Shown here: piece by piece, positions 209 to 64,000 of the stretch
How positions within the stretch are numbered: the first letter of the stretch is position 1
How the letters are laid out: every line of letters begins with the position of its first letter
NCBI GenBank assembly: GCA_943736015.1
Contig: OX031065.1
Span: 39,012,427 to 39,076,426 of the forward strand
DNA length: 64,000 bases
Reading direction: 5' to 3'
From: Tridacna crocea
Taxonomy: Eukaryota > Mollusca > Bivalvia > Cardiida > Cardiidae
Translations under genes and position numbers: made by a program
The notes under the pieces: model-generated
Database searches by the model: none
What the model saw: only the letters and a program-made list of their open reading frames with translations
What the model was told of the DNA's origin: nothing

Positions 209-435
209 TTAACCCTTTCCCAAACGGCACATTTTAGACTCGTCCAAACTGAAAGAATTTGCAGACAACAATTTTAAATTTGATAAAGATAATAGAAAGT
301 TCTCCTAAAGGGTAGAAAACACTGTGGGAAAAGGAGAAATTGCTCGTTAGGAGCAATTTCTCCTTTTCCCACCGTGTTTTCAAAAGACTTGTACTGCAGA
401 CACGTAAAACCAGGGCTTGTTTGGGAAAGGGTTAA
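209..435 (-). mobile_element. Palindromic TTAA MITE (piggyBac-like), hairpin variant
   Basis: Bordered by TTAA on both sides with CCCTTTCCCAAAC-type inverted ends. The central hairpin has the variant top GAAATTGCTC / GAGCAATTTC in place of the usual GAAAATGCTGG / CCAGCATTTTC, with both arms changed together. Strand is given relative to the copy at 32485-32714. Confidence 0.8.
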
Positions 436-17028: not shown

Positions 17029-17241
17029 TTAAAACCCTATGCCCAAGTTTTTTACGACGCTTAGAAATATAGTTTTTTTAAAAATGTTGTTGAAAAGGGT
17101 TGAAATTCTAGTAACCAACCTTTTCTCCTTTTCCCTTGCTATCCTTCTTAAAAAAAAATGATTTTTAAGCCACATTCAATGTGTTATCTGCAAAGACTTC
17201 CAATTTGGGCGAGTCTCAAATTTTTGTTTCGTAAAGGGTTG
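17029..17241 (+). mobile_element. Degraded palindromic TTAA MITE
   Basis: Left TTAA present; right end reads GTAAAGGGTTGG, so the second TTAA is lost. The hairpin left arm is heavily mutated while the right arm keeps CTTTTCTCCTTTTCCC. Confidence 0.6.
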
Positions 17242-18020
17242 GTGAAAGATTCAGTGTTATAAAAAATGGGTTGTCGGGGTATAACATCAATATACCTGCA
17301 GTAGACCTTTCCTAATTTTATGTCTGGTCATTCAACCAATGTTTTCGTAATTCTGTAGTTAAGTTTGTAACGTACAGGCTCGAAGTCCAGGAATCTGTGG
17401 TTTGATTTATTTAAACTATTAATGTGATAATTTTTCCAAAAAATCGTTCCATTATCTGCTAAAAGACAGAGATAGTCTACTAACAAAAAACTGTGACATC
17501 AAACATTTGAATTTATAGCAAAAATCTTAACTTTGAAATAACATTTTTAAAAATCTGTATAGTTGCATGTTTGCCATGTTCCTGTTTGAACTAGCTTACA
17601 AGTTGACTATCGTAATAACAAAGTTTAATTCAGATTTCAAACCTTCCATTCCCACTAGAAGAAAAGATGTTACAGATTCATTTTCAGGAAGCGAATACGT
17701 GCTATACTTATTTTCATTGAAAAACTAGTCAAGGGTTAGCTGGGTGTACGTTTGATCTCGGTGTTTCACCGTCAAAGTGGATTATCTATTTGAAAAGCTG
17801 TTGTGTTCTTTTTAGGCACCGACTAATTAACACACACGTGTCATAATTAAGTGTTTATCGCGTTTAGTCTTACGTTGATCACTTGTAAAGGTTTGGAATT
17901 GTTAAAAGCTGTGACGGAGGGTAAGTCTGTTCTAATTACTGGTGCCAAAAGATGCATTTTTCTGCCTGAACATTTTTTTTTTCCAAATGCATTATGTAAC
18001 CTGGGGTAACAGGTCCCACT

Positions 18021-18249
18021 TTAACCCATTACTACACAATCCCTACTTTTGACACCACTGAAAAAGAGGCCTTTAAAAAACATTGTGGGAAAAGGACGAA
18101 ATGCTGGTAACCAGCATTTTCTCCTTTTCCCACAATGTTTTCTACCCTTCAAAAAACTAATTTCAAAATTTCAATCACTTTTATTTTGTCGTCTGCAAAT
18201 TCTTTCAATTTGGACCAGTCTGAAATATGGTTGTTTGGTAATGAGTTAA
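18021..18249 (+). mobile_element. Palindromic TTAA MITE, CATTACYACACAA subfamily
   Basis: TTAA at both ends; the hairpin is nearly perfect (one mismatch). Nested in the 15.5-19.8 kb element and absent from that element's short copy. Confidence 0.85.
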
Positions 18250-18339
18250 ACGGTATATTTGCACTAATTTCTTTAGGAATGGAGGGGGGGGGTTATTTGT
18301 TTAATTTAGGTTAAACCTTATCTTACTAAATATATTAAA

Positions 18340-22325: not shown

Positions 22326-22740
22326 CACAGGAATTAATGTGACATTCTATAACCAAAATAAATGATCAAATATGAAAAAAATCTCCCCTATATAATATAT
22401 TATATGGCTTGCAACACATGAAAAGGGGCATTCAGACATTTGCGTAAAGTGTCGTTTCGGTTTAGCCTGCCCAGTCCGCGCAGGCTAATCCGAAACGACA
22501 CTTTCCGTTTTAATGTATTTTTCTGTTTCATGCAAGTCTAACGTTACTGAGGGACAAAATCTAATGTAGCCGTAAAGTGCCGTCTCGTATCAGCCTGTGC
22601 GGACTGCGCAGGCTAATCCGAAACGACACTTTAGGCAAATGTCCGAATGTCCTTTATACCGCGTTGCTAGCCATATAGTGGAGATTTCTTTTTTTTCATA
22701 TTTGATCATTTATTTTGGTATAGAATGTCAAATTCCTGTG
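22326..22740. mobile_element. Short relative of the 10433-14458 element
   Basis: Ends CACAGG / CCTGTG and shares TGACATTCTATA, CAAAATAAATGAT and TATGAAAAAAATCTCC with the ends of the 10.4-14.5 kb element. Its centre is replaced by a GTAAAGTGTCG-family MITE (22403-22675). No convincing target duplication; left CTTCATA and right CTTCGTG are only similar. Confidence 0.65.
22403..22675. mobile_element. GTAAAGTGTCG palindromic MITE
   Basis: Inverted ends ATGGCTTGCAA / TTGCTAGCCAT, then CATTCAGACATTTGCG with its complement on the right, then two internal hairpins each built of AGCCTGCGCR and its complement. TA flanks suggest a TA target. Other copies: 51594-51866 and a half copy at 58045-58130. 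Confidence 0.8.
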
Positions 22741-34964: not shown

Positions 34965-35129
34965 AGATCTTGGAGAAGCCTTGAAAACATTGTTGGAAAA
35001 AAAAAAAATCTGGTAATTAGTATTTTTTCCTTTTCCCTCACCGTTTTTTATCCTTTCAATTACAAACGACATCTTCAAATGTGGCTTTTCAGTTGGATGA
35101 GTCCAAAATTTTGTGTCTGGTAAAGAGAT
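34965..35129 (+). mobile_element. 5'-truncated TTAA MITE abutting the previous copy
   Basis: Begins AGATCTTGGAGAAGCC directly after the TTAA of the preceding copy and ends GGTAAAGAGATCAA. Confidence 0.65.
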
Positions 35130-35408: not shown

Positions 35409-35555
35409 ACGTATTAACCCAGGTCAGCCTGCACTGTCCACGCAGGCTGACCTTGGCCAAAATGTTTTGCTATTGGTCAATTTTCTGCATGTCAAATGAC
35501 CAGCGTGCCTCAGTAGGTTGTTATACAGAACTGACTTTGAGATACATGTATATTA

Positions 35556-42795: not shown

Positions 42796-42826
42796 AAAGC
42801 CTGTTTGGTATCAGGTGATATCATAC

Positions 42827-43055
42827 CTAACTCATTACCAAACGACCATATTATAGGCTTGTCCAAATTGAAAGCATTTGCAGACGACAAAATAAAAGTG
42901 ACTGAAAATTTGAAATTTGTTTTGTGAAGGGTAGAAAACATAGTGGGGAAAGGAGAAAATGCTGGTTACCAGCATTTTCTCCTTTTCCCACTATGTTTTC
43001 AAAGGGCTTCTTTCTCAGGGTCGCTAAAAGTCGTGATTGTGTGGTAAAGAGCTAT
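42827..43055 (-). mobile_element. Palindromic TTAA MITE
   Basis: Ends decayed (CTAA, GAGCTA). The hairpin has the paired change CATAGTGGG / CCCACTATG. Confidence 0.8.
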
Positions 43056-43582: not shown

Positions 43583-43817
43583 TTAACCCTTTACCCCATA
43601 AGGCATTTCTATGGCATCTCTAATTGACCCTAAATGACAGCAAGGATGAAGCCATTTCTTATATGTAAATGACACCTTTTGACAGCAAAGAAAACATTGT
43701 GACAAAAGGTGAAATTGCTCATCGAGAGCAATTTCACCTTTAGTCACAATGTTTTCCAAAGACTCCTACAGGCAAGTTGTGGATTAAGAAATGAGTATCT
43801 ATGGAGTAAAGGGTGAA
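43583..43817. mobile_element. TTAA MITE, ACCCCATAAGGC subfamily with intact alternative hairpin
   Basis: Left TTAA intact; right end GGGTGAAC decayed. The hairpin is CATTGTGACAAAAGGTGAAA through TTGCTC-ATCGA-GAGCAA to its complement, with one mismatch. Its stem sequence differs from the main subfamily in both arms. Confidence 0.8.
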
Positions 43818-43932: not shown

Positions 43933-44104
43933 GAGAACCTGAATATAGTGTTAGAAAATCTATGAAGACTATATTCTAAAAAGTTAAATAATTGGAAAGG
44001 GTCGCAGCACTTGAAAATGCTAGATTTCAATCACTTTATACAAGCTGGTATTTGTTTTTTGAAGAGACTTATTGCTTTTCACCTGTGCAATATTTGTTTC
44101 TGTC

Positions 44105-44335
44105 TTAACCCTTTTCTACACAACAAAGTTTCTATCGTTATCTCTAATTGACCCTATATAACTGCAAGGATGAAGCCGTTTCTTATGTGTATATGACACC
44201 TTTTGATAGCATAGAAAAAATTGTGACAAAAGGTGAAATTGCTCATCACTAGCAATTTCACCACTTGCCACAATGTTTTCCAGACGCTCCTACAAGCAAT
44301 GTGTAGAAATGGGTATCTATGGAGTAAAGGGTTAA
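44105..44335. mobile_element. TTAA MITE, ACCCCATAAGGC subfamily
   Basis: TTAA at both ends; hairpin of the GTGACAAAAGGTGAAATTGC type with several mismatches in the right arm. Confidence 0.8.
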
Positions 44336-44498
44336 GCCTTGTCCAAATTGAAAACATTTGCAGACAATTTAAACTTTTCTTTGATAGAGTAAAAGATATT
44401 TTGGGAAAAGTTTCATTTGTCTAGGTTTGAATTGTTTGCTAGATGCTTAAGTCAGAGTTTCACACATCAGAGTTTCAGACTGATCCAAATTAGAAGTA

Positions 44499-44730
44499 TT
44501 AACCCTTTTCCAAATGACAAAATGTTAGACTGGTCCAAATTGAAAGCACTTGAAGACGACAAAATAAACATTCCTCAAAAATTTACATGTGTTTCCATCA
44601 GGTTAGAAAACCTTGTGGGAAAAGGAGAAAATGCTGGTTACCAGCATTTTCTCCTTTTTCCACAAGGTTCTCAAAAACTTTCCTTCCCTGGGGGGTCATG
44701 AAAACCAGGGATTGTTTGGTAAAGGGTTAA
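44499..44730 (-). mobile_element. Palindromic TTAA MITE
   Basis: TTAA both ends. Paired change CCTTGTGGG / CCACAAGG in the hairpin. Confidence 0.85.
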
Positions 44731-44933
44731 AAGATGACAAAATTTTAGTTAAGCAGGCCGAGATGATGAGATTAGTCTATAAAAGAGTAGAAAACATTGT
44801 TGGAAAATGAGAAAGGATTGGTTTCAAGATGTATTTTTACATTTTCACAGACAAATCAGATCACAAGCCAGATTTAATCTATCATCTACAATTCATTCAA
44901 AGCAAAAACTCTGTGAACTCATAGAGAAGCCAC

Positions 44934-47894: not shown

Positions 47895-50800
47895 GTAAGC
47901 CATTGATCCTGTTGCAAAATAATCTGTTGTTTTAGCAAGTATTCAGGTACACATAATTCATATTTACATTGGACCTTCACGAAGCCATCATATTTGATTA
48001 CTCCTTTACCAAAACAACAAAAACTCTGGTTTTTATGACCTGGAAGCCTTCTGAAATTATTGTGGGAAAAGGAGAAAGTGCTTCTAAACCCAGAGTCCAA
48101 AAAATCCACTTGTCCGCTAGTCCTTTAAAAGTAGTAAAAATTTGGTGAGGGCAAGTTGATTATCCTTCTTTGTCTATCTGTAAGACGAGTGAAAAATTGC
48201 AGGGGGACAAGTAAGAATTCTCAAATTTTTTGGACTCTGAAACCAGCATTTTCTCCTTTTCTCACAATGTTTTCTTATCTTCTAAAGTCAAGTTTCATTT
48301 TTTGAGTCCTGTTTATTTTGTCTTCTGCAAATGCTTTCAGTTTGGAACACTCTAAAATATTGCTGTTTAGTAAAGAGTTAGTAAGAAATCATTTTTTCAT
48401 TAACTGTGGTTCTGAAGGTCAAAAGTTCAAGTCTGGGGAGGGTAGGAGTCTTTCTGTTGTGGCTGTCATTGAGACATTGTCCTTGGGCAGTATTATGTTT
48501 TCTTGTAAGGTAATTATTCTATGGTCCTACATCTTTTCAAGTTACTGAAAGTTGTTTTTGTCAGCAACAAATAGTTAGCCTTGTCCAAATATAAAACATT
48601 AATATTGTAGGTGACTCAAGTGTATATATATTCATTGATGGATATTGCTTTTGATAGGCTAGAAAACTGTGGAAAAGGTAACAGGCCTGTCACAAGCATT
48701 TTCTCCTTTTCCTACAATATTTTTGGTAGGATTGTTTCTTTGGGTTGTGTGGTAAAGGGTTAACTTTACCAGATGACAAATTTTCTAGATTTGTCTAATC
48801 TGAGAGTTTGTAGACAGCATAATGAATCTGGCTGAAGGATTACGACCACTCATAGGCAAATATCAGGTAACACTGACATTTTCGTAATATGATGGTTAGG
48901 GGCCATAGTCTCACTAAAGTCCTTTGCAAATATTGTGTAACACTGATGTTTTTGTGCACGCCATTTGGACAAAGTTGGGAACTTGCGTCTTTTGATATGA
49001 GAGTAAAGGACCATAGACCTTAAAGAATTCATACTGTCCGTAAAAGGGTTGGGAAAAAGATTGGGATAGGAGAAAATTCTGAATTCATACAAGCTACCTC
49101 CTTTTTGCCACAATGAATGTTCTCTCAATTACCCTCGCAGAATCATAAAAGCATGGGTTTATCTGCTGTGAAGGGTTTGAATAATGGACTGATTTTATTT
49201 ACAGACCCCCACTACACCAAATACCCCTTCAACTCCAAAGCAGAAAGTTTTACGATCAACAAGTACACCTACGACTGGGGACAAAGTGAAAAAGGAACTG
49301 TCACTACCACTTAAGTCTGTTAACAGCACACCACATGAGTCTGTCAGTAGCCCATGCACGCCCACACAGCGTATTACAAGGTCCATCAGTCTTGACAGCG
49401 ATAGCAAACCAGATGGAAAGCTCATATTCAAAACTCCAATGGCATTTAAGCCAAGATTGGTTGGCAACAAGCCGGTGCCATCTCCGTCAAGACAGGAAAT
49501 CTGGAAACAGCAGCTTGGCTTAACTGGTAATATTAGTGCTTAACCCATTACCACACAATCCCTACTTTTGACGCCCCTGAGAAAGAAGCCTTTTGAAAAC
49601 ACTGTGGGAAAAGGAGAAAATGCTGGTAACACCCACAGTGTTTTCTACCCTTCCCAGAACAAATTTCAATTTTTCAGTCACCTTTATTTTGTCCTCTGCA
49701 AATGCTTTCAATTTGAACCAGCCTAAAATATTGTTGTTTGGTAATGAGTTAACACTTTACCAAATAACAAAATTTTAGATCAGTCAAAAGCATTTGCAGA
49801 TTTCAAAATAATAAATTAAAATTTGTGTTGAGCAGGGAAGAAAACTTTATGGGAGAAGGAGAAAATGCTAATTACTGATATTTTCTACTTTACTGTTTTC
49901 AAAGCCTTCTTCTAAGAGTCGTTAAAACTTGGGATTGTGTGGAAAAGAGTTAACTCATTCCTGCATTTTGTAATCTATAGAAGTGCTCTTGCCTTAATAC
50001 TGTAACTGTGGAAAAACTTTAGAAGGCAAAATAAAAAGTATTTGCAGATGACAACTTGAATGTGGCTGTATATTTATAGCCCCCCCCGCTCCCCCCAAAC
50101 AAATGTTTTTGGGGGTATACTGGAATATCTGTCTGTATATCCACCCGCGTATCCAAACATCCGTGTGTCTGTCTGTGTACAAAATACTAATAATTTTGAT
50201 CACAAACTCCTCCTTCAGTTTTCCTTCAATTGTATTGAAACTTTCCACATATACTGATTATATATTTAAGATTTGCAAGACACAATTTTCAAGTGTCAAC
50301 TCTTCCTGGTTGAGGAATTATTTCCACTTGAACTTGACACTTTTTTCTGTCAATTGCTGGCAGTGGTATATAGTCACATTCAGTGACAGCTCTATTTATT
50401 TCTGTCTGATTTGGTAGTAAACATCATGAACATTGAAAAAAATGCTGGTAACGAGTGTACTCATCCCTTTTCTCGCAGTGTTTTTGAACCTGTAAATCTT
50501 AACCAGATGACAAAATCTTAGACTTGTCCAAATTAAAAGCATTCGTAGAAGACAATTTTTAAAGTCGAATTTTGTTTTTGAAATAGTAGAACACATTATG
50601 TGAAAAAGAGAAATACTGTTTACCTGCATTTTGCCTTTTTTTTTTTGATCACACCAAGACTTTCTTTCTAGGATCATTTCATGTTTGTTGTAAAGGTTCA
50701 AGACAAACATGGCTCTGACATTAGCTCTATGACATTATATTATTTGCCATTTTAACCCATTACTGCAAGCTCTAAGCACAGCTTGAGTGGTTCTGCTGAT

Positions 50801-53800
50801 TAAAACCTGGTTGTATACAGAGTGCAGACTGATCTTAGATTTAGCTTGTTTGATATTTTGGAAGCAATTTCTGGCTTTATTCATAATGAAAATTAGGCTA
50901 AATTATTGTTGTGTTTACATCAGTCAAACTACAGTACGTCTGTATGTTGGAGAGCAGCAATTTACATTTTACAGGACTGGTATTGTCACGTATACCGTCT
51001 AAGAAATGAAGTCAGTATGGACTGTTCCACTTACTTTCTTAACCCATTACCACACAATCCCTACTTTTGACGCCCCCCAAGAATGAAGCCTCTTGAAAAC
51101 ACTGTGGGAAAAGGAGAAAATGCTGGTAACCAGCATTTTCTCCTTTTCCCACAGTGTTTTCTACCCTTCCCAGAACAAATTTCAATTTTTCAGTCACCTT
51201 TATTTTGTACTCTGCAAATGCTTTCAATTTGGACCAGTCTAAATTTTTCTCGTGTGGTAAAGAGTTAACAAAGCTCAACACTTTCAAAGACAATTGTTTT
51301 AAAATCCCTAACAAATATTTACAATTCACCTGGGTATACAGATATATGACCTATGCTATGTGAAAAGGGACCTAAATGCATACATAAAAAGTATCAGCCC
51401 AGGTTTTTCTGCACAGATAGGAGTGTAGAAACAGTGTTTGGTAAATTGCTTCAGTGCTCAAGGACCATTCTACATCGTGATTCAGCAGCTTGTTGGCAAA
51501 ATAAAATTTCTCAATCTATAAATATGTGATGACATTGACATGCCTGCATTACGGAGATCCAGGTAATTCTCCCTGTGCCAGAGGATAGCCCATATATGGC
51601 TTGCAAAACGCAAAAATGGGCACTCGGACATCTGCGTAAAGTGTCGTCTCGGATCAGCCTGCGCAGACCGCGCAGGCTAATCCAAGATGGCAATTTACGA
51701 CTACATTAGGTTTTGTGATACAGTAGACTTGTGAAAATTAACAGAAAACTACATAAAAAACGGAAAATGTCGTTTCAGATTAGCCTGCGCGGACTGCATA
51801 GGCTGATCCGAGAGGACACTTTACGGAAATGCCCGAATGCCCCTTTTCGCGTGTTGCAAGCCATATTACGTATTTTCTACTACTAACAATCTCTTTTCCA
51901 GATGATCCCAGTTTTCAGGATGAGAGCGGTTGTGACAAAGAAAATACCACAGATGATGATGACGATGACCAGAGATGTAAGCTTACTTATTTAAGATGGT
52001 CATGTTTACCTCATGTTTCTGGTTACATACTCTTTTGATTGAAGATATGTGCAATCTCTTTCTTGAGATTTTCTTGGTTCCCCTCCCTTATCCCAAATTA
52101 AGTTTCTTTACCACACAATCCCGACTTTTAACGACCCTGAGAAAGAAACCCTTTGAAAACATGCTGGGAAAAGAAGAAAATGCTGGTAACCAGCATTTTC
52201 TCCTTTTCCCACAATGTTTTCTACCCTTTCCAAAATAAATTTTCAATTTCTGATTCACATTTATTTTGTCATCTGCAAATGCTTTCAATTTGGACAAGTC
52301 CAAAATTTTGTTGTGTGGTAAAGAGTCCATAAGGTAAAAACCTTTTTTTTTCCTGTGCTGCAAAGGGACATTTTTTTGCAGGATCTGAACTATTTTCCAC
52401 CTGTCACTTTTATTTCATTCTTGACACTTCCCTTCTTGTACTGCATACGAAGATCTTTCCAAGCCAACACCTGCCACCTAACTAGACCACTAAAATTAAG
52501 TCAAACTGGTAAATTTTGCATTTCAAATTAATTTGTTTTTTAAAATTTTTCACCTGAATACACGTCAAAACAGTTTGGCAAAAAGAAAATCGATTTGTAT
52601 GAGCAATATCTCATTTTCCTGGAGTATTTTTAAAAGTTCCTTGCTGCAAGACAGAAAAGGATGCTTTAGGTTATTGTTCATTGTGATTTCTATTGTAGGG
52701 GGTAGATTATACTGTATTGAAGTTACTAAGTTTTAACAATACAGCAGTGTTGAAGTAGATTCTCAGTCTGTCATATACATGTGTCAGAATATCCCCCTGT
52801 GTTTGAGATCCTAGATGAGGAAGGTTAGCCTTTGGAACTGCCTTTATTATGGTACAAGCTCTTGTTTGTAAATGTTGCAAGGGCGCATTTTGTCAGAGTG
52901 ACTTAATTGAACTGTCCAACTTCTTCACGATTAATAATAGAATTATTAGTTTTAAATGGCAAACCACTAAGATTCATGATTATGAGGAAATGTACAATAC
53001 AATCAGCTGAAATGAACCCTGTATTTTATAGCTTGGATAGGAAGTTTGTACCATAGAATTTGGTATTGATCATTTCTTTTACAACTCGGGTTCTTTTGTT
53101 TACTTTTCATAAGATAGGGAAGCAGTATTGATTGTGTAAAGTATTAATTTTACAGAGTATTGATTAAGTGTTACACATTGCTACTGTTTTATTGCTTAAC
53201 ATTATTATCCCATCACCATACAATCCAGAGGTTTAAAAACCATGTGAAAGAAAGCTTTTTAAAATACCATTGGGAAAGGAGGAATTTTTTTAAACATTGT
53301 GGAAAAAGGAGAAAATGCTGATAATCAGGGAAAAGAAGCAGATTTTAGCTCTGACTGCCCTTCCTTTAACCCTTTACCACGCAATCCTGGCTTTTAACAC
53401 CCCTGTGAAAGAAGCCTTTTGAAAACATTGTGGGAAAAGGAGAAAATGCTGGTCAGCAGCATTTTCTCCTTTTTCCACAATGTTTTCTTTCCTTCCTAAA
53501 ACATATTTTAATCCATTAGTCACTTTCATTTTGTTGTTGGCAAATGCTTTCATTTTAGACCAGTCTAAAATTTTGTCGTTTGGTAAAGGGTTAACACAGC
53601 AGTGACTTTTCTATTTTGCTATAGGTAATTTTCTAAGACATTGTGGATTTCAGAAAAATACGCCCGATGAATGATTTATTTGTTTGATAAATTTGATAAA
53701 CATTAACATGCATTAAGTCTTCAATACACTTGATAAATCTTTTTTTAGCTCACCTGAGCGGGAAGTGCTCATGTAGAGCTATTGTGATCGTGCTGTGTCC

Positions 53801-56800
53801 ATTGTCCGTCGCCAACTTTTTACCTTGTGTATGCTCTAGAGGCCACATTTTCAGTCCGATACTCATGAAAGTTGGTCAGGATGTTTGCCTTGATAAAATC
53901 TCGGACGAGTTCGAAAATGGGTCATGTTGGGTCAAAAACTAGGTCACTAGGTCAAATCTTAGAAAAACCTTGTGTACGCTCCAGCGGCCACATTTTCAGT
54001 CGGATACTCATGAAAGTTGGTCAGGATGTTTGTCTGGATAATATCTCGGACGAGTTTGAAAATGGGTCATGTGAGGTCAAAAACTAGGTCACTAGGTCAA
54101 ATCTTAGAAAAACCGTGTGTACTCTCTAGAGGCCACATTTTCAGTTGGATACTCATGAAAGTTGGTCAGGATGTTTGCCTGGATGATATCTCCGATGATT
54201 TAGAAAATGGGTCATGTGGGTCAAAAACTAGGTCACTTGGTCAAATCTTAGAAAAACTTTGTGTACGCTCTAGAGGCCACATTTTCAGTCCAAAACTCTT
54301 GAAAGTTGGTCAGAATATTTGCCTTTATGATATCTTGGACGAGTTTGAAAATGGGTCATGTGGAGTCAAAAACTAGGTCACCAGGTCAAATGTTAGAAAA
54401 ACCTTTTGTAGGCTCTAGAGGCCACATTTTCAGTCCAAAACTCTTGTAAGTTGGTCAGAATGTTTGTCTTGATGATATCTCGGACAAGTTTGAAAATGGG
54501 TCATGTCGGATCAAAAACTAGGTCACTAGGTCAAATCTTAGAAAAACCTTGTGTACGCTCTAGAGGCCACATTTTCAGTCCAAAACTCTTGAAAGTTGGT
54601 CAGAATGTTTGTCTTGATGATATGTCAGAGAAGTCCCAAAATGGTTCATGTGGGGAAAAAAACTAGGTCACTAGGTCAAATCTTAGAAAAACTTTGTGTA
54701 TGCTCTAGAGGCCACATTTTCAGTCCAAAACGCTTGAAAGTTAGTCAGAATATTTGCCTTTATGATATCTTGGACGAGTTTGAAAATGGGTCATGTGGAG
54801 TCAAAAACTAGGTCACTAGGTCAAATCTTAGAAAACCTTGTGTATGCTCCAGAGGTCACATTTTCAGTCGGATACTCATGAAAGTTGGTAAGAATGTTTG
54901 CCTTGATAATACATTACATGACTTTGAAAATGGGTCATGTGAGGTCAAAAACTAGGTCACTAGGTCAAACTTTAGAAAAACCGTGTGTACTCTCTAGAGG
55001 CCACATTTTCAGTTGGATACTCATGAAAGTTGGTCAGGATGTTTGCCTGGATGATATCTCCGATAAGTTAGAAAATGGGTCCTGTGGGTCAAAAACTAGG
55101 TCACTTGGTCAAATCTTAGAAAAACCTTGGGTACGCTCTAGAGGCCACATTTTCAGTCCAAAACTCTTGAAAGTTGGTCAGAATATTTGCCTTTATGATA
55201 TCTTGGACGAGTTTGAAAATGGGTCATGTGGAGTCAAAAACTAGGTCACCAGGTCAAATGTTAGAAAAACCTTTTGTAGGCTCTAGAGGCCACATTTTCA
55301 GTCCAAAACTCTTGTAAGTTGGTCAGAATGTTTGTCTTGATGATATCTCGGACAAGTTTGAAAATGGGTCATGTCGGATCAAAAACTAGGTCACAGGTCA
55401 AATCTTAGAAAAACCTTGTGTACGCTCTAGAGGCCACATTTTCAGTCCAAAACTCTTGAAAGTTGGTCGGAATGTTTGTCTTGATGATATGTCAGAGAAG
55501 TCCCAAAATGGTTCATGTGGGGAAAACAACTAGGTCACTAGGTCAAATCTTAGAAAAACCTTGTGTACGCTCTAGCGGCCACATTTTCAGTCTAAAACTC
55601 TTGAAAGTTGGTCAGAATATTTGCCTTTATGATATCTTGGACAAGATTGAAAATGGGTCATGTGGAGTCAAAAACTAGGTCACCAGGTCAAATATTAGAA
55701 AAACCTTTTATAGGCTCTAGAGGCTACATTTTCAGTCCAAAACTCTTGTAAGTTGGTAAGAATGTTTGCCTTGATAATACATTACATGACTTTGAAAATG
55801 GGTCATTGGGGGTTAAAAACTAGGTCACCAGGTCAAATCTTATAAAAACCTTGTATATGCTCTGAATGCCACATTTTCAGTCCAACACTCTTGAAAATTA
55901 GTCAGAATGTTTGCCTTTATAATATCTTGGATGAGTTTGAAAATGAGTCATGTTGGGTCAAAAACTGGGTCAATAGGTCAAATGTTATAAACACCTTTTG
56001 TATGCTCTAGAGGACACATTTTCAGTCTGATACTCTTAAAACTTGTTCATAATGTTTGTCCAGGTGATACCTTGAATGAGTTTGAAAATGGGTCATGTGG
56101 AGTCAAAAACTAGGTCAATGGGTCAAATATTAGAAAAACCTTGTATACACTCTAGAGGCTACATTTTCTTCCTGATACTCTTCAGACTTGGTCAGAATGT
56201 TTGTTTTGGTGATGTCTCAAAAGAGTCTGATAATGGGTAATTGTCGGGTCCAAAACTAGGTCACTTGGTGAAATCTTAGAAAAACCTGTTGTACGCTGTA
56301 GAGGCCACATTTTCAGTCCAATACTCATGAAACTTGGTCAGAATGTTTGTCTTATTGATATCTCAAAAGTGTTTGGTGATGGGTAATGTCTGATAAAAAA
56401 CTAGGTCACTGGGAAACTAGATGGTTCATGTTTGGTCAATAGACTCAGATGAGCGATTTCAGGGCCATCATGGCCCTCTTGTTTAACCCTTTACCAAACA
56501 ATCCCTGGTTTTTACGGCCCTGAGATAGAAGCTTCTTGAAAACATTGTGGGAAAAGGGGAAAATGCTGGTAACCAGCATTTTCTCCTTTTCCCACAATGT
56601 TTTCTACCATGCTGGAAACAAATTTCAATTTTTGGGTTACGTTTATTTTGTCTTCTGCAAGTGCTGTCAATTTCGACTGGCCCAAAATTTTGTCGTTTGG
56701 GAAAGGGTTAAAGAGAAAGAAGTTTCCGTGAAAATATAGTGGAAAAATGAGATAATGCTGGTAACAACCAACTTTTCATTTTCCCACAATGTTGTCTCTT

Positions 56801-59800
56801 CTACCAAAGACAAATTGATTCATGCTTTGTGAATAAGCACTTGCAAAAAAGTATCAACCCAGGTCAGCCTGCGCAGTCCATGCAGGCTGACCAGGGCAGA
56901 AACTTTTTTTGTATGTTCAGGGACCTGGTTACCTCAGGATTCAGTTGGTTGTATAACAAAATGGATTTTATAGATCCATGCTCATGTGATCACTTGGTTG
57001 GTGTCCTGCATCACCAAGATGATGCCCACTTTTGCCAGAGAGTGGCTCAATTATTTGAGCTCTATTTGGTTAGCTGTCTGCTTATCCTTTCAGTATGAAA
57101 CAAGTCCATAATTTTGTCGCCATTAAACTCAGTACCAGCATTTTCACCTTTTCCAACATTGTTTTCAGGGTCAATATTCACCAACCATTCTTAGGAACAT
57201 TCTGTGTCTTACTCTTCAAGATTTTTTAACTGTGAAAGTAACAGAACTTCTGATTGGGTAAACCATACGGTTTAGCCAATCAGAAGTTCTGTTACTTTCA
57301 CATTGACAAAATTCTGAAGAATAAGAATGGTTCTAAATAGGACTTGGTGAATACAGACTCTGATGCCTTTTACACCAAGGTTCGTAAAACTTGTGATTGT
57401 TTGGTAAGGGGTTAAAGAGTTGATGAATCTTTCTAGGTCAAACCTCCCAGGTAGAATATAGAGCATTGCAGAGAGTGTTGGCTGAAAGGAATGCCCAAAG
57501 AGATGAATCATTACTACAGATTAAGGTGACTACATTTTTTCTTGGTCTTATGGATATTATTGCGGTTGCATTTATAAATGATTTTATGATTTGCATTTAT
57601 GTGATAAAAATCTGATGTTTGAGGATGTTTCAGATAAAATGTTATTAAACATGTCAAGGAAAATGTTATCAAGCTCACCCAAGGCTCGCTTAATAATGTT
57701 TCCCTAGACACGTTTAATAAAATCTTATCTCAAAAGTCTACTTGTGTCAAATCGTATATATCCTGATAAAAACCTGATATAAAACTCTAGCCAATAGTGA
57801 AACCTCAAATTTTGCCATTTCAAAGGTATTCTTTGGGAAAATATTGTCTATTATCAGGCTGCACATTTTGTGCAGTCTGATCTTTAACTACACTGTCTGC
57901 AAAAGGTCTATAAGTCAAACTTAACAGCCTAAGGGCTAAGGATGTTTCAGGTTTTTTTTTTACCATGAGTAGCCCCATTATTGTGGTATGAACTTTCATT
58001 ATGGCCTGAAACAGGTGAAAAGTCTACTGTAGCACAAAATCGTATGTTGTCATAAAGTGCCATCTCGGATTAGCCTCCGCGGTAGTTCATGAAGGCTGAT
58101 CCAAGGCAAAACTTTAGGCAAATGTCAGAAAGTCATATATTCCAGGATTTGCTTAATATACAAATCTTTCCAAAGAATGGCCTAATTTACCCCAAAATGG
58201 AATATCACAATGACCCAATGCTTGCATATGAGGATAATTCCATGGTACATACAAAAGCTTCTCAAGAGTCAAAAATGTGTGATTGGTTAGTAAGTGTTAA
58301 ACATTGATTCCTTTTTCCATTACTAGTATTTTCTCCTTTGCCCAAAATGTCTTCAAATGACCTTTACCTCACCTTTAACCCATTACCACACAATCCCTAC
58401 TTTTGACGCCCCTGAGAAAGAAGCCTTTTGAAAACACTGTAGGAAAAGGAGAAAATGCTGGTAACCAGCATTTTCTCCTTTTCCAACAGTGTTTTCTACC
58501 CTTCCCAGAGCAAATTTCAATTTTTCAGTTGCCTTTATTTTGTCGTCTGCAAATGCTTTCAATTTGAACCAGTGTAAAATTTTGTCGTGTGGTAAAGAGT
58601 TAAGGTAATTTAAATCAGGAATGTGCAGTAAAATTTTGAAAGTGTACCTCCAAATGCTGGCAGAAAAATGAATACCAAAACTGATATAATGTAGCTAACA
58701 TAGTCACAATGCCACACTGTTGAATGGTAGGGATGAAATTTAAAAAAGTGTAGTGTTTATTGTTCACTCTAATTACAACATGATTAGTACTACCTGGAGT
58801 AGTGAGCTATCGCAGACTGTGAAGTTCAAGATCAGAATACAGAATTTGATTTGAATTTACCCTATCTGATTTCGCGTATACATGTATGTATGTATCGCCC
58901 CTATACTGCATAACCCAACCCTGCAAAAAGAGATCTTTATAAACATGGGATAAAGAAAAAATGCTGGTTACCAGTATTTTCACCTTTTTCCAATTATTTG
59001 TCTGTTCTTTCAAAGACATGTCTTATCATGATCATATTTTATTTAATTTCTCATGTTCAAAAACCTTGAATTTGGATAATCAACATCTTTTCCTTTTCCC
59101 ACGATGTTTTGTACCCTGTCAGTGACGTAAATCCTAATTTCAGCTACACCTATTTTGTTGGCTGTAGAAATGCTTTCAATTTGGTCTAGTCAAAAAACTT
59201 GTCGCTTGGTAAAGATTTATAGTTTATCACTCAACAACATAAGGCAAGAAGACTCTGAAAACATTTTGGGAAAAAAGAAAAAGCTGTTAACCAGCAAATA
59301 AAATTAAGGTTGTCGTCTGCAAATGCTTTCAATTTGGACAAGTATAAACTTTTTTGCTATGGTGAAGAGTTAAGCTAACAAAGACATGGATTTTTCTTAA
59401 CAACAGAATTGCAAAGACAAGATTCGGTTGTACAAATCACGGTTGGAAAGAGAAGAAAATACAAAGCGGCAACAGCTGAAAATTCTTAAGAAGACTCATG
59501 AGACACAGCTTCAGGAAAAAGAGAGAGTGATTGATAATTTGACAGCAATAGTTGATGAGCAGGAAGAGAAAATGAAAGAACTAGAAGAAAATGCAAGTAA
59601 GGCCATGTGAACTCTTCCCTTCTTTCACCTGAAATTGAATGTTTAGAGATAGATAAATATTTTAAATTCAATCAAGCATGCTATAAACCCATTGTTTCCC
59701 AGTTATATGTGGTTCATATACCTGGGATTGCAAGTCTAAATCCTAGCTGAGACAGTTTTTGTCCAAGGATTTTTGTGACATTCATTACAACTGAGAGAGT

Positions 59801-62800
59801 TATTTATTACAGCTATCATAACTGCATACGTTTCTTGTATAGCACTTGGTTAATGAGTGGAATTAACCTGCATTAACTCTTTTACGAAACAATCCCTGGT
59901 TTTTACATCCCTTAGACAGAAGCCTTTTGAAACCATTGTGGAAAAAGGAAAAATTCTGGTAACCAGCATTTTCACCTTTTCCTATAATGTTTTCTACCCT
60001 GCTGGAAACAAATTTCAATTTTTAAGTTACGTTCATTTTGTCATCTGCAACTGCTTACAATTTGGACCAGTCTAAAATTTTGTCGTTTGGTAAGGAGTTA
60101 AACTGAAAAAATCAATTTACCAATGAGAATGTCAATAAAATAATTTATCGCATAACTCCCCGTGTTTTCAATGTAATACAGCCATTATGAATTTTCTTGT
60201 CTCACACACATGTGAGATCTATAAGAAAATAGTGCTGTATTTGTTCAACACTATGTAATTATACAGTCCATTTCTAAAACAGTGCTGACCTAGGTTCCTG
60301 AAGGGAATTAATGGTCAAGTTTGAATCATGATAGGGTTGTTTGTCAATATCAATACAGTTGACTCTCATTTTGTGGAAATCTCTTATCTCAAAACTTCTG
60401 TTATGTCAGTCAACGCTATGTCAAAACTTTGTGCCTCTTTATCTTATGTTGATTTGGTTTATGTTTCAAAACCGTTACATCCAAAAGACTAATATGTCGA
60501 AGTAATTTTGAGAGCAGTATCTTACTTCAGATAATATTTTCATGCGCATATATCTGCTATTGTTTGTAGATAATAGGGTGCCAATTCACATGATAGATAC
60601 TATATTATCTTAACTCTTTACCAAATGACAATATTTTAGACTGGTCCAAATTGAAAGCACATGCAGACAACAAAATAAAGGTAACTCAAAAATTGAAATT
60701 TGTTCTGGGAGGGTAGAAAACAATGTGGGGAAAAGAGAAAATGCTGGTTACCAGCATTTGCTCCTTTTCTCATGTTTTCAAAAGGCTTTTCTCTCAGGCA
60801 GGGTCGTTAAAAGTCGGGATTCATTGTGTGGTAAAGAGTTAAATAATTCATTAGATAGAAGATTAAGGTGCGAATAAGTTTCAAGTGGTTCATGTAAGAC
60901 TTGCACCCATCATGAAAAATACAATGAACAATAAGGGTTGTTAGTTCCGCTCCCTTACTAATGGAGTGAGCAAATTGCCTTTATAACATAATCTCTGTAT
61001 GTCAACATTGTCCTCTATTAAGTCTTTACCACACAACTCCGACTTTAAACAATCTAAAAAAGAAGTTTTTGGAAAACACTGTGGGAAAAAGAGTAAGTGC
61101 TGGTAATCAGCATTTTCTCCTTCTCCCTCAGTGTTTTCAAAGAGAGACATCATCATGTCATCATTTCATCAATGTTAAATACTTCTTCTGCAAATGCTTT
61201 CAATTTGGTCACATCCCAAATTTTGTCGTTTGGTAAAGGGTTAAGTCAGTCTGCATGGATGAGGCTGCTACATTTTTTCAATGCTCATAATGTCATCAGG
61301 AAACCAACTAGAATGTTCTTTGGCTATGACTGAGGAAACCTGCAAGGGACCTTTAAATTTCCTGGGGATAACTGCTTCAGTCCTTTTGAACTAAGGCATG
61401 ATAGATAAGCTTGATGTGAAGTAGAAAAAGAGCCATTTTAGAGGTTGTTTCACAAAGCCACAACTTCAATTTATTTCCATTCTATTTTGGGTGTATTTCC
61501 GGATTTTGGTTAGTCTGTCTTCGAATTCTTATATTGAACTCCAGATATGTTGAATTATTTTTGCTGTCCCAAGGAATTTAAGATAGCAAGAGTCTACTGT
61601 ATATGCATTAATATATTACCCGGTATGCAAGTTTTTTCAAAGCTATTTTTCATTCATAATGTACCTGTCAAAGAAGCGCACAGGCTTCATGTTAATTTCA
61701 TTACATATTTTACATGTATATCCCTGGTTTAACACATTATGGACTATAATTCTTGTTACACAGTAATGTGATAAAGAGAAACTCATTGGCTTTTGAGGAA
61801 AAAGAGTTATTAAACATGTCCACAAAAAATGTTATTATAAAGCTCCCCAAAGACTTGTTTAAAAAAAAGAAAAAAAAGAAAAATCTCAAAAACCAACTCA
61901 TGTCAGATTTTTATTAGCATCTAATTGTTTAAAGAAATTCAAAAAGAAGTTTTTTCATGAATCAAAGGATCAACACCAAGAAGGAGAGGTAAACAGCCAA
62001 ATGTAATAGATAACTCAGTCAAAACCAGTCAGCTTATTGAAGAAATCAAAAGACTGCAGACAGAAAAATTAGCGCTCAGCACCCAGCTTAACGAAGTTCA
62101 ACTTGAACTGAACACAGTAAGGGAAGAATCGACAATCGAGATAGAGAGTTTGAAACAGAGAGTTGGTCAAACAGATAAAAGTAAAACCTTGGATGATTCT
62201 AGTCATGTGATAAAAAACCACAATCAGGTACTTCATGTGCTATTTTGTATCAATCCTTCATCTCTTATTTGACCACACAATCCCTGAGAAAGAAAGCCTT
62301 TGGAAACATTGTGATAAAGGAGAAAATGCTGGTAACCAGCATTTTCTCCTTTTCCCACAATGTTTTCTACCGTTCCCAAGGCAAATTTCAATTTTTCAGT
62401 CACATTTATTTTTGTGTTTTGTCTGCAAATACATTCAATTTGGACCAGTGTAAAATTTTCTTGCGTGGTAAAGAGTTAAGCAAACACGTGCAAGTCTCAT
62501 GGTTAGCAACAGTGGCATTCTGGGTGTGCAAAATTAAGTTTGGAGAGTTATCTAATTCTAATAGAAATGGTAATAACAATATTTTTATTTTAATTCATAG
62601 CATAAAGTAAAGTTTTGTTTTACCAGATATGTATTCCTGATTTCTTTCAAAATTAAAGTTAATATTTTGAACAGCTAGAATGGTCAAGTCATTGGCTAAG
62701 ATTGAGCAAATTGGATGATACCTAGTTGTAGAATTCAGAAAAGGAGTGGAAGGTCAGAGCTTCAGATTGAGAGAGTGATTTCAATTTTAAAGTTAAAGAT

Positions 62801-64000
62801 ATTGATAATTCTTCACGAAGCCGTATGTTATCGGTACTCATTAGGATTATCTTTTCAAGACAATTCCTATGGGTACCCACAACATAGGGTTTGAAAGAGA
62901 AATAATGTTTTAGAATACCGTCACTCCCCCTTATCTGGAGCTCTGGTAGGTAAATACATCCCCTAACCTTGTCAGTTCTGAGCACACCATAATGTCATTT
63001 TTCTGTTCTATGTCTAGTGTAATTTAAGAGTACTGTAAGAATCAGTTTTCTGTTTTATTTGCAGTCAGTTTTAAGCACTCCCTGCACGGACACAGAGAAA
63101 CATGTAGAAATTCTGCAGGCAGAAAATGATAGGCTTCTCCAGGAATTAACAGACTCAAGAAATGCCCATACAAAGGCATTGACTGTCTCAAAACTGACAG
63201 GTCACAGGCAGCAGGTACAAGTATCTATAGATTTCATCTAAAGTGATGCTGGTTCCCAAACAAAGATGAAAATATCATTTATATCGCACCCTCATTCCAA
63301 TGCCAAATGAATGTAATAAGGATAATGGATTTTGAAAGAATTTTTGATTGTACTGCTGGATTTATCAGCTATTGATTTGCAGTAAAATAATATTATTTGC
63401 TGCAGTCTATCCCAAAATTTTACATATCAATAAGCGCACAATTAGTTCTTCCTAACCCTGTGCACCTATTAAAATGGAATTCTTGCACCTAAGGCTATGG
63501 TCTTCTTTTTACTCCTTTTCAACATTTTTTCAGTCTTTTTCAATGCATCATCACAGGGTTTTCCCTCAGCCACAAAAATAGGGGATCATTGTGACCCCCT
63601 AGTCAAAAATAATGGGGGTCATTTTGGAATTTGTGGGGGTCACAACAAAATGTAATTCGCTAAATTGCTTAACTCTTTACCACACAAGAAAATTTTAGAC
63701 TCCTCCAAAGTCAAAGCATTTGCAGATGAAAAAATAAATTTGACTGAAAATTTGAAATTTGGTTTAGGAAGGGTAGAAAACATTGTGGGAAAAGGCGAAA
63801 ATGCTGGTTACCAGCATTTTCTCCTTTTCCCACAATGTTTTCAAAAGGCTTTTTTCTCAGGGTCGTTAAAAGTCGGGATTGTGTGGTAAAGAGTTAAACA
63901 AAAGCTACTATTTGTGAAAGTATAAGGTTTTTTTATGTGTAGCCTCTCACTGTGGTTAAGGGTTATTTTGTTTTTATCACAGGAATCGACCATTTCGTTG
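47832..64000 (+). CDS. Multi-exon gene for a coiled-coil protein of unknown identity (3' end outside window)
   Basis: Eight or nine exons (47832-47894, 49205-49526, 51902-51976, possible 52464-52508, 57437-57525, 59407-59596, 61968-62227, 63065-63214, 63983-64000) join with AG/GT borders and compatible phases into one open frame of 404 codons, or 389 without the 45-nt exon, which keeps the frame either way. The N-terminal ~130 residues are basic and rich in Ser, Thr and Pro, with at least ten S/T-P sites. An acidic run of six Asp follows, then highly charged segments rich in Glu, Lys, Gln and Leu typical of coiled coils. No catalytic motif is visible. S/T-P clusters plus coiled coil suggest a cell-cycle-phosphorylated cytoskeletal or chromosomal protein, but I do not recognise the family. 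Introns range from about 0.5 to 5.5 kb and are full of MITEs. No stop codon is reached before the window ends. Confidence 0.8.
47999..48380 (+). mobile_element. TTAA MITE interrupted in its hairpin by another element
   Basis: Left half 47999-48090, right half 48240-48380; the interruption lies at the hairpin tip. It sits in intron 1 of the gene. Confidence 0.75.
48091..48239. mobile_element. 149-bp hAT-like MITE, 5-bp target duplication
   Basis: AAACC at 48086-48090 and 48240-48244. Inverted ends CAGAGTCCAAAAAAT; subterminal GACAAGT / ACTTGTC words also inverted. Confidence 0.75.
48640..48764 (-). mobile_element. TTAA MITE fragment
   Basis: Hairpin remnant (ACAAGCATTTTCTCCTTTTC) and the GGTAAAGGGTTAA end. 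Confidence 0.6.
49205..49526 (+). CDS. Second coding exon, Ser/Thr/Pro-rich basic region
   Basis: Acceptor TTATTTACAG ends at 49204 and donor G|GTAATA begins at 49527. The exon is 322 nt (107 codons plus one base, phase 1 out). It begins TPTTPNTPSTPK and holds further TP and SP sites (STPTT, NSTPH, SSPCTPTQ, FKTPMAF, PSPSR), interspersed with Lys/Arg, and ends RQEIWKQQLGLT. Such S/T-P density is usual for disordered, proline-directed-kinase targets; that role is inference. A TTAA MITE begins only 14 bases after the exon end, so the donor is squeezed against a transposon. Confidence 0.85.
49540..49752 (+). mobile_element. Palindromic TTAA MITE 14 bp after exon 2, missing hairpin tip
   Basis: TTAA both ends. 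The left arm is complete but the right arm starts only at ACCCACAGTG, so the hairpin tip region was deleted. Sequence outside the hairpin is nearly identical to 51039-51268 and 58375-58603. Confidence 0.85.
49749..49953 (-). mobile_element. Palindromic TTAA MITE sharing its TTAA with the previous copy
   Basis: The TTAA at 49749-49752 serves both copies, which lie in opposite orientations. Its hairpin is decayed. Confidence 0.75.
50075..50394 (+). mobile_element. Short Helentron/HINE-like copy
   Basis: GCCCCCCCCGC...TTTTTGGGGGTATACTGGAA start and TCACATTCAGTGACAGCTCTA end, matching 35556-36795 but with almost none of the tandem core. Appears to lie in a decayed TTAA MITE, remnants of which flank it. 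Confidence 0.6.
50500..50700 (-). mobile_element. Decayed TTAA MITE
   Basis: AACCAGATGACAAAATCTTAG start, GACTTGTCCAAATT arm, remnant hairpin. Right end lost. Confidence 0.6.
51039..51268 (+). mobile_element. Palindromic TTAA MITE, young copy
   Basis: TTAA both ends. The hairpin is perfect over ~66 bp with paired CACTGTGGG / CCCACAGTG. Near-identical to the copies at 49540 and 58375, suggesting recent movement. Confidence 0.9.
51594..51866. mobile_element. GTAAAGTGTCG palindromic MITE next to exon 3
   Basis: Ends ATATGGCTTGCAAAACGC / GCGTGTTGCAAGCCATAT; internal AGCCTGCGCAG...GCGCAGGCTAA hairpins. Ends 35 bases before the exon-3 start. Confidence 0.8.
51902..51976 (+). CDS. Third coding exon, acidic segment
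   Basis: Acceptor CTCTTTTCCAG ends at 51901 and donor T|GTAAGC begins at 51977, phase 1 in and phase 1 out. It encodes DDPSFQDESGCDKENT followed by a run of six Asp, then QR. A palindromic MITE of the GTAAAGTGTCG family ends at 51866, about 35 bases before the acceptor, so the branch point probably lies in or at the edge of transposon-derived sequence. Confidence 0.8.
52108..52327 (+). mobile_element. Palindromic TTAA MITE
   Basis: Both TTAA sites decayed, but ACCACACAATCCCGAC and GTGTGGTAAAGAG ends are clear; hairpin with two mismatches. Confidence 0.8.
52464..52508 (+). CDS. Possible 45-nt cassette exon
   Basis: CTTTCCAAG ends at 52463 and ACTG|GTAAAT follows at 52509. The 15-codon segment (SNTCHLTRPLKLSQT, first Ser completed from the previous exon) is open in the required phase (1 in, 1 out). 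Because it is a multiple of three, skipping it also preserves the frame, so its reality cannot be decided from phase. It could be an alternatively spliced microexon or chance. Confidence 0.35.
53366..53594 (+). mobile_element. Palindromic TTAA MITE
   Basis: TTAA both ends; hairpin tip GCTGGTCAGCAGC slightly mutated. Fragments of another copy precede it at 53220-53340. Confidence 0.85.
53746..56481 (+). mobile_element. HINE/Helentron-like element with ~18 copies of a 145-bp minisatellite
   Basis: Starts AGCTCACCTGAGCGGGAAGT after a T run and ends in the hairpin GGGCCAT-C-ATGGCCC then TCTTG, followed by TTT. The interior is a tandem array with 144-145-bp period (unit landmarks: GAGGCCACATTTTCAGTC, CTTGAAAGTTGGTCAGAATG, AAAACTAGGTCACTAGGTCA). 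Distinctive variants recur 865-868 bp apart (GGATACTCATG unit at 54140 and 55010; ATAATACATTACATGACTTT at 54905 and 55771), showing a six-monomer higher-order repeat. Translations of the array are repetitive and not proteins. Confidence 0.8.
56483..56711 (+). mobile_element. Palindromic TTAA MITE abutting the minisatellite element
   Basis: TTAA both ends; perfect hairpin except one G/A (GAAAAGGGG). It starts two bases after the presumed 3' end of the minisatellite element. Confidence 0.85.
57100..57417 (+). mobile_element. Decayed TTAA MITE split by a fold-back element
   Basis: ACCAGCATTTTCACCTTTTC on the left of the insertion, GTTCGTAAAACTTGTGATTG and GGTAAGGGGTTAA on the right. Confidence 0.6.
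57175..57352. mobile_element. Fold-back element with 30-bp near-perfect hairpin, TA-flanked
   Basis: TA-TTCACCAA...TTGGTGAA-TA ends. Centre GTGAAAGTAACAGAACTTCT / AGAAGTTCTGTTACTTTCAC with GATTGG-GTAAACC completing an almost perfect stem. Likely mariner-type MITE. Confidence 0.75.
57437..57525 (+). CDS. Coding exon, start of coiled-coil region
   Basis: Acceptor CTTTCTAG ends at 57436 and donor AAG|GTGACT begins at 57526. It is 89 nt, phase 1 in and phase 0 out. The translation (QTSQVEYRALQRVLAERNAQ, then RDESLLQIK) is amphipathic and highly charged. It follows the largest intron of the gene, which holds the ~2.7-kb minisatellite element and several MITEs. Confidence 0.75.
57526..58374. other. 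Intronic; two MITE remnants
   Basis: 57790-57945 is a GATCAGACTGCAC-family copy (CTTAACAGCCTAAGGGCTAA end), 58045-58130 a half copy of the GTAAAGTGTCG MITE. No extra exon is evident. Confidence 0.5.
58375..58603 (+). mobile_element. Palindromic TTAA MITE, young copy
   Basis: TTAA both ends; hairpin with paired CACTG / CAGTG and a single stem mismatch. Confidence 0.9.
59075..59373 (+). mobile_element. Two truncated TTAA MITE copies
   Basis: 59075-59218 has the right half (CTTTTCCCACGATGTTTTGT to GGTAAAGA). 59236-59373 has a left arm (GAAAACATTTTGGGAAAAAA), a truncated tip and the AT-rich arm to GGTGAAGAGTTAA. They end 33 bases before the coiled-coil exon at 59407. Confidence 0.65.
59407..59596 (+). 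CDS. Coding exon, long coiled coil
   Basis: Acceptor TTAACAACAG ends at 59406 and donor A|GTAAGG begins at 59597. It is 190 nt, phase 0 in and phase 1 out. All 63 codons form a near-continuous Lys/Glu/Gln/Leu heptad-like pattern (for example KSRLEREENTKRQQLKILKK, later EQEEKMKELEENA) without proline or glycine, a clear coiled-coil signature. Confidence 0.85.
59873..60101 (+). mobile_element. Palindromic TTAA MITE
   Basis: TTAA both ends; hairpin with several mismatches. Confidence 0.85.
60102..60609. other. Intronic sequence, nothing recognised
   Basis: AT-rich, no element ends and no exon-like open frame with splice sites. Confidence 0.4.
60610..60842 (-). mobile_element. Palindromic TTAA MITE
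   Basis: TTAA both ends; right hairpin arm shortened (CCTTTTCTCATG). Confidence 0.85.
61018..61244 (+). mobile_element. Palindromic TTAA MITE
   Basis: TTAA both ends; the stem is mutated but retains paired CACTG / CAGTG. Confidence 0.8.
61245..61967. other. Intronic sequence, nothing recognised
   Basis: AT-rich; an A-rich run at 61860-61890. No supported exon. Confidence 0.4.
61968..62227 (+). CDS. Coding exon, basic linker plus coiled coil
   Basis: Acceptor ATCAAAG ends at 61967 and donor CAG|GTACTT begins at 62228. It is 260 nt, phase 1 in and phase 0 out. Other upstream AGs give immediate stops in the required phase, which selects this acceptor although its pyrimidine tract is modest. 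The product begins with a basic RSTPRRRGKQP stretch holding another TP site, then a leucine/glutamate-rich coiled coil (SQLIEEIKRLQTEKLALSTQ and on), and ends in a polar tail. Confidence 0.8.
62262..62479 (+). mobile_element. Palindromic TTAA MITE with small deletions
   Basis: Left end eroded (TGACCACACAATCCC) and missing the GACTTTTAACG block; right TTAA intact. Confidence 0.8.
63065..63214 (+). CDS. Coding exon, coiled coil
   Basis: Acceptor TTTATTTGCAG ends at 63064 and donor CAG|GTACAA begins at 63215. It is 150 nt, phase 0 both sides. It encodes SVLSTPCTDTEKHVEILQAE followed by a short coiled coil. An alternative donor ACAG|GTCACA at 63201 would also be possible but would end the exon in a different phase. 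Confidence 0.8.
63554..63655 (+). mobile_element. Solitary end of the CAGGGTTTTCC hAT-like family
   Basis: CAGGGTTTTCCCTCAGCC then GGATCATTGTGACCCCCTA, matching the complement of the right end of 37571-38296. Confidence 0.7.
63669..63897 (-). mobile_element. Palindromic TTAA MITE
   Basis: TTAA both ends; near-perfect hairpin (one GGCG/GGAG difference). Lies in the last visible intron, 85 bases before the exon at 63983. Confidence 0.9.
63983..64000 (+). CDS. Start of the next coding exon, cut by the window edge
   Basis: TTTTTATCACAG ends at 63982; the following 18 bases are open in phase 0 (ESTISL), matching the phase-0 donor at 63214. Too short to judge alone, but the acceptor tract and phase fit. 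Confidence 0.6.

Follow-up and report, generated by a model that had tools for sequence, protein, structure and literature searches.

A TTAA-flanked element with an internal palindrome

The window (the whole 64 000 nt stretch of Tridacna crocea DNA that was analysed) has a base composition of 64 % A+T, is without long reading frames and carries many copies of one TTAA-flanked element of ~226 bp, ~40 of which are recognizable. A profile built from 15 copies returned 134 nhmmer rows at a sensitive setting, many of which were the palindrome of the element read on the opposite strand. We retained the 41 rows in which 20 or more stem pairs could be scored, along with 60 or more flank positions. One of these (17135–16960) was a second reading of 17044–17246, leaving 40 non-duplicate copies; the duplicate row is excluded from the counts given for 40 copies, and is kept in those for 27 and 23 copies and in the mismatch counts. 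Representative copies are listed here, with paired variants numbered by stem pair.

51039–51275, + strand: full copy with TTAA at both ends; stem 51095–51161 perfect; paired variant at 64 (T-A to C-G)
58374–58610, + strand: full copy with the same pair-64 variant, plus an unmatched double change at 68 (A,A)
49540–49755, + strand: copy in which CACTGTGGG and CCCACAGTG lie 16 nt nearer each other; stem-internal deletion
39529–39703, − strand: copy matched to model position 176 of 239; stem 39581–39647 perfect; paired variant at 66 (G-C to A-T)
42818–43054, − strand: full copy without TTAA ends; paired variant at 65 (T-A to A-T); one-sided change at 71
44496–44731, − strand: full copy; paired variant at 63 (A-T to C-G); two one-sided changes
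35187–35416, + strand: full copy; paired variant at 67 (T-A to A-T); four one-sided changes
34737–34970, + strand: copy; paired variant at 70 (G-C to A-T); seven one-sided changes
32820–33069, + strand: diverged copy; paired variants at 68 and 85; pair 57 doubtful owing to stem insertions
205–435, − strand: copy with main-family flanks; paired variants at 64, 82 and 87; two one-sided changes
587–823, + strand: full copy; stem 641–707 with 66 positions unchanged despite diverged flanks (private middle-flank branch 0.160)
32485–32720, + strand: full copy; one-sided C-A mismatch at pair 64
18020–18257, + strand: full main-family copy; three one-sided changes
56482–56720, + strand: full main-family copy; one one-sided change
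63660–63898, − strand: full main-family copy; one one-sided change

Copy 49540 falls outside the pair counts because fewer than 20 of its pairs could be scored.

The ends of the element lie near CYCWTTACC and GGTAAWGRG. TTAA is present at both ends in 17 of the 24 full-ended copies, at one end in four and at neither in three, from which a TTAA target duplication at insertion is inferred. The element is short, multi-copy and non-coding, with short terminal inverted repeats and a fixed target, and is therefore a non-autonomous TTAA transposon (MITE). TTAA is the target site of piggyBac, and Kolobok transposons likewise insert at TTAA, with termini 5′-RR and YY-3′ (PMC9587614). Because of this common target, Kolobok membership was considered; the copies mostly start with CC or CT after the TTAA and finish with GG or AG before it, which is not the RR/YY signature, and Kolobok was set aside on this ground. 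The terminal motif CC[C/T]T has been stated to be a hallmark of piggyBac (PMC2872659). The starts of our copies vary, some reading CCCT and others CCCA or CTCT, or carrying single changes. The ends of the element are nearer to those of piggyBac than to those of Kolobok. No Pfam match above the cut-off was found in the eight of 37 window frames that were checked; a weak match to Transposase_29 (E 0.013) lay below it.

The palindrome comprises 33 pairs and one central base (67 nt; model positions 57–89 and 91–123). It sits off-centre, ~55 bp from one end of the element and ~105 bp from the other, and is near-perfect in the best-preserved copies. Five stems folded as DNA gave energies of −32.5 to −38 kcal/mol, with z-scores of −12.8 to −15.6. 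An exact search with the stem core in viral and prokaryotic contig collections gave no matches, a result that is uninformative about animals.

The copies are unevenly distributed: of the 40 counted, 33 lie between 32001 and 64000, the right half. At 49746–49755, two oppositely oriented copies overlap at a single TTAA, which suggests that one MITE inserted at the TTAA of an existing copy.

Matched changes in the two arms

The first-pass annotation of this DNA had named six variants of the hairpin in which both arms differed together, and all six are present in the window: CACTG/CAGTG (51095–51161), CATTATG/CATAATG (39581–39647), CATAGTG/CACTATG (42934–43000), CCTTGTG/CACAAGG (44606–44672), CATTGAG/CTCAATG (35242–35308) and the GTGAC..AAATTGC stem (43690–43756). 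Its wider statement, that the arms usually change together, did not survive counting. Among 1262 scorable pairs in the 40 copies, 1030 had the consensus, 97 were changed on the left only, 95 on the right only, 33 were matched doubles and seven unmatched doubles, so that 192 one-sided changes stand against 33 matched doubles. With the duplicate row included (41 rows), the figures were 202 one-sided changes, 33 matched and seven unmatched doubles.

What did hold was the idea that pairing is non-random, even with most stem changes one-sided. Independent mutation predicts 9.3 matched doubles in the 40 copies, compared with the 33 observed; the 27 well-preserved copies contain 14 where 2.0 are expected, and the best 23 contain seven where 1.4 are expected, all three expectations presupposing that 45 % of random double hits match. 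The most conservative null, whose column and copy rates were estimated from these same data, left seven against 2.9 for the best 23 copies (P 0.024), and six distinct matched variants (P 0.067).

Covariation was assessed in a set of 22 stems, made up of 20 of the 27 well-preserved copies (the seven with stem-length changes being omitted) and two copies of the second family described below. Ten of the 33 pairs were changed on both sides, compared with 3.2 in shuffles, and none of 500 shuffles reached ten. Slid registers, used as a control, gave between one and five covarying pairs, below ten in all six. Simulation with independent arms, on a tree made from those same 22 stems, gave 2.4 doubly changed pairs. 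The observed numbers of double-change pairs and of double-change cells were reached in none of 300 simulations, and that of pair types, one of four measures, in four of 300.

Seven of the 11 distinct classes of matched change are transversions (one of the seven being the doubtful pair 57 of copy 32820), whereas two independent hits should yield a transition fraction of 0.86 (P 0.00017). The outer stem holds 11 of the 14 matched doubles and 38 of the 78 one-sided changes in the 27 copies (Fisher P 0.046). Transversion richness is expected if the second change was copied from the first, as it would be if short template switching during replication, repair or transposition rewrote one arm from the other with no selection on pairing. 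Such stem-correcting template switching has been described (PMC8794818), and the strong folding of the perfect stems would favour it. We regard rewriting of this kind, possibly coupled to mobilization, as the main rival explanation, one that is possible and in our view rather unlikely. The old copies outside the second family, which might have been rewritten after insertion, give a mixed answer: the 11 of them contain 11 matched doubles against 6.0 expected (P 0.027), a weak excess that vanishes when copy 25451, which carries the pair-82 change of the second family, is left out (10 copies, eight against 5.4, P 0.16). Another palindromic family in the window, with core AGCCTGCGCAG, also speaks against general rewriting of arms; its four copies counted, out of 11 plus-strand matches, have 29 one-sided changes, one matched double and one unmatched double.

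Covariation is also the usual sign of RNA structure, and a near-perfect 67 nt hairpin (as folded with DNA parameters) could, if transcribed, be under selection for its double-stranded RNA or as a precursor of small RNAs, as the first-pass annotation had proposed. Such pairing on a single strand would lead one to expect G-U mismatches in excess of A-C. However, the one-sided mismatches in the 27 copies comprise 24 G-T and 26 A-C, and this lack of any bias of G-U over A-C, which speaks mainly of inserted copies, is joined by the predominance of transversions among the matched changes. Rfam gave no match at gathering scores in the window. Neither the mismatch types nor Rfam thus lends specific support to RNA pairing, and we consider a role as RNA very improbable.

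A second family and the pair-64 variant

Three copies form a second family, in which the terminal sequence TTAACCCTTTAC and the outer stem are common with the main family and the flanks are largely different.

43583–43767 (extent by the main profile), − strand: second family, copy a; stem 43690–43756
44101–44335, − strand: second family, copy b; stem 44214–44280
32168–32382, − strand: second family, copy c; left arm retained, right arm mostly deleted

The hairpin persists in the second family, where between three and five of its pairs are exchanged. Exchanges that keep pairing set copies a and b apart from the main family at 70, 77 and 82, and copy a alone at 69 and 87. Unpaired differences are found at 71, 88 and 89 in copy a, and unpaired or wobble differences at 62, 69, 73, 74, 87 and 88 in copy b. 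The right-arm T of pair 69 is common to the two copies and the left bases differ, giving A-T in copy a and G-T in copy b. This looks like stepwise compensation, its order unproven; copy c is deleted there and its partner base ambiguous. Pair 69 therefore suggests an inherited mismatch, short of proof, which would count against arm rewriting.

The pair-64 C-G variant is carried by copies 58374 and 51039, which are adjacent on the main tree, and by 205–435, 61018 and 49540. It clusters on one of four flank trees (two steps versus 3.8, P 0.003), with no clustering on the other three (P 0.15 to 1.0).

These observations raise the question of whether the paired variants come from a few source elements, in which they were slowly acquired or received by exchange of whole stems, with no continuing force on pairing. 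The sharing of the pair-64 variant between the neighbouring copies 58374 and 51039, and with 49540, would fit such an origin, as would the marking of the second family by pairs 70, 77 and 82. Copy 205–435 fits as well: it combines main-family flanks with the same changes at 82 and 87 as copy a, so that either stems have been exchanged between the families or the core is old. However, the variants at 63, 65, 66, 67 and 70 are in different copies and need separate origins, the shuffles and tree simulations fall short of the observed number of doubly changed pairs, and a few old subfamilies would leave the pairedness of the changes unexplained. We find this account distinctly improbable. The first-pass annotation had itself regarded mostly one-sided stem changes, or paired variants that were simply a few old subfamilies, as results that would tell against it; the former is what the window contains, and the latter fits the second family and, in part, pair 64.

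Inherited and private change in the stem

Trees built from the flanks are star-like, with 90 % of their length in terminal branches, and inheritance is therefore judged with weak power. As a positive control, left-flank columns placed on the right-flank tree clustered strongly, with 128 steps versus 153. In the 27 copies, recurrent one-sided changes fall into 14 classes covering 36 cells, and another 42 one-sided changes are private. The recurrent changes took 35–36 steps on four flank trees, compared with 35.1–35.3 for shuffled labels, and are thus scattered over these trees as at random; one class saved one step on each of two trees. Taken over all stem columns, clustering was seen on the right-flank tree (58 steps versus 62.4); it was barely seen on the left-flank tree (60 versus 62.3, P 0.075) and absent from the combined tree (62 versus 62.4).

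The rate of inherited change differed markedly along the element. On the middle-flank tree, change per site on internal branches came to 0.358 for those flanks, 0.368 for the terminal repeats and 0.060 for the whole stem; within the stem, the value was 0.000 for the inner 19 pairs and 0.150 for the outer 14. Left- or right-flank trees likewise gave 0.000 for the inner stem and 0.19–0.21 for the outer, and the tree of all flank columns gave 0.021 and 0.109, respectively. Inherited stem changes number ~4 to 5 overall; for the inner 19 pairs three independent trees show none, where the flank rate would predict ~14 (0.358×38 sites). This is difficult to reconcile with arm rewriting alone, which lets pairs change neutrally. 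Given this absence of inherited change in the inner stem, and an old-copy excess that is weak or absent, rewriting after insertion was not adopted as the sole cause.

In 23 of 27 copies the stem had diverged privately less than the middle flank (P 0.0001), and in 19 of 27 less than CpG-free flank columns (P 0.007); its private divergence resembled that in the terminal repeats (P 0.61). For the outer stem alone, private change was not clearly slower, being below the middle flank in 16 of 27 copies (P 0.046) and below the CpG-free columns in 15 of 27 (P 0.46). We infer that the stem, and above all its inner part, is kept from change as long as a lineage is mobile, and decays once a copy has inserted. 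Sequence as well as pairing appears to be constrained in the inner 19 pairs, and mainly pairing in the outer 14.

Conservation of inner-stem sequence could also mean that each arm is the half-site of a dimeric protein, with folding irrelevant. Paired C-terminal domains of piggyBac and piggyBat transposases do bind palindromes, as described in PMC11707139, but the sites described there are short (19 bp for piggyBac, and imperfect for piggyBat) compared with 67 nt here. Selection on half-sites would, moreover, act on each arm separately and favour one consensus base rather than matched departures from it. A symmetric binding site would by this reasoning account for the slow change and not for the matched departures, and as an explanation of the paired variants we think it scarcely probable.

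Proposed maintenance of pairing while the element is mobile

Any explanation has to account jointly for the matched doubles, the lack of visible inheritance of unmatched changes and the slow inherited change. Template switching in inserted copies would account for the first of these, but copying alone would not slow the inner stem. We therefore favour the reading that mobile lineages keep their pairing, which is lost once a copy has inserted, through selection for a folded form in mobilization; we give it a probability of about 0.5. The step from maintained pairing to a need for folding in transposition is one that we draw from the pattern of changes. A folded form, either a single-strand hairpin or an extruded cruciform, would help mobilization, and the arms of an element able to move would have to remain complementary. 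One-sided mutants would be lost, or completed by a matching change, so that mobile lineages would carry matched arms, and template-switch correction may occasionally supply some of the second changes. An inserted copy would be neutral, its arms decaying independently of each other, and one-sided changes would consequently be in the majority. The first-pass annotation had offered rewriting of one arm or selection on pairing as alternatives. Our results agree with it in that pairing is maintained, apparently in mobile lineages, and lend little support to the rewriting of inserted copies.

Several observations sit uneasily with selection for a folded form. The old copies outside the second family keep their weak excess of matched doubles, and unpaired differences are also found in second-family copies. 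The outer stem, which holds most of the matched doubles, shows no clear slowing of private change relative to the flanks, and the transversions among the matched changes bypass a wobble pair. A single mismatch would cost a 33-pair stem little stability, and selection against each one would need to be strong. The paired variants at 63, 65, 66, 67 and 70 are in one copy each, and may pre- or postdate insertion.

It is also conceivable, and to us improbable, that copying or mobilization of the element passes through a folded intermediate, single-stranded or cruciform, whose one arm serves as template for the other, with new insertions starting out freshly matched. Unpaired changes would then arise after insertion only, and paired changes would be the inherited form of mutation; proofreading of the palindrome would be built into such a DNA transposon.

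MITEs are often regarded as little more than filler between terminal repeats, and in this element the internal palindrome inherits change more slowly than the terminal repeats do. Pairing that is kept through base exchanges points to a role for DNA folding in MITE amplification. Since stranded copies decay freely, one genome gives both a constrained and a neutral record, and selected pairing versus templated copying of arms is directly testable in such a genome.

Comparison with known systems

The nearest parallels among known MITEs are the CMITE families of Acropora corals, which are piggyBac-related (PMC2872659). Like the present element they have a TTAA target duplication, ends such as CCCTTT and no coding capacity, and their internal region, which varies less from family to family than the terminal repeats do, is suspected of a role in transposition. 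CMITEs are ~100 bp long, compared with ~226 bp here; the strings 'palindrom' and 'secondary structure' have no occurrences in the text available, and matched arm changes are not described in the parts of the paper examined (PMC2872659).

Hairpins with exchanged pairs have been reported elsewhere. DINE-1, a non-autonomous element, has a 3′ stem-loop hairpin with a stem that varies in sequence from species to species and stays paired, from which the authors inferred compensatory mutation (PMC2374699). Unlike the palindrome described here, that stem is 7–11 nt long and near the 3′ end, the element is discussed as a MITE or Helitron and inserts between TT, and the changes are between species rather than between copies in one sequence (PMC2374699). 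Template switching that maintains hairpin stems gives matched changes in both arms, as here, but in the stems of RNA genes compared across species, whereas ours is a transposon palindrome with slowed inherited change (PMC8794818). The long inverted repeats of nematodes are actively maintained and, as here, more conserved in structure than in sequence; they are long and gene-bearing, unlike a short transposon palindrome (PMC1803023).

Among the matches listed for openly licensed literature, judged by titles and abstract openings, no report of covarying arms in a TTAA MITE was found. A literature search with the end and stem motifs of the element gave only papers unrelated by title, and the word 'hairpin' is absent from the available text of a paper on bivalve transposons (PMC10294476).

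Other repeats and reading frames in the window

The window contains further repeats and frames, as follows.

22443–22507, 22571–22635, 51635–51699 and 51761–51825: palindromic repeat family with core AGCCTGCGCAG, the copies lying in two pairs with centres 126–128 bp apart
24035–24160: short palindromes in a run around AAATGACCCATGGGTCATTT
57207–57326: longest listed inverted repeat, with 58 nt arms that are 88 % complementary
49193–49540 and 61961–62269, + strand: exon-like frames
54014–54376 and 54882–55244: similar stretches 868 bp apart, with frames both containing GHVRSKTRSLGQ

The long inverted repeat at 57207–57326 differs in sequence from the MITE stem. Neither of the exon-like frames had a Pfam match above the cut-off; they have a serine/threonine/proline-rich stretch and a likely coiled coil. 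The two stretches containing GHVRSKTRSLGQ represent a longer repeat that is unmatched by the MITE profile.
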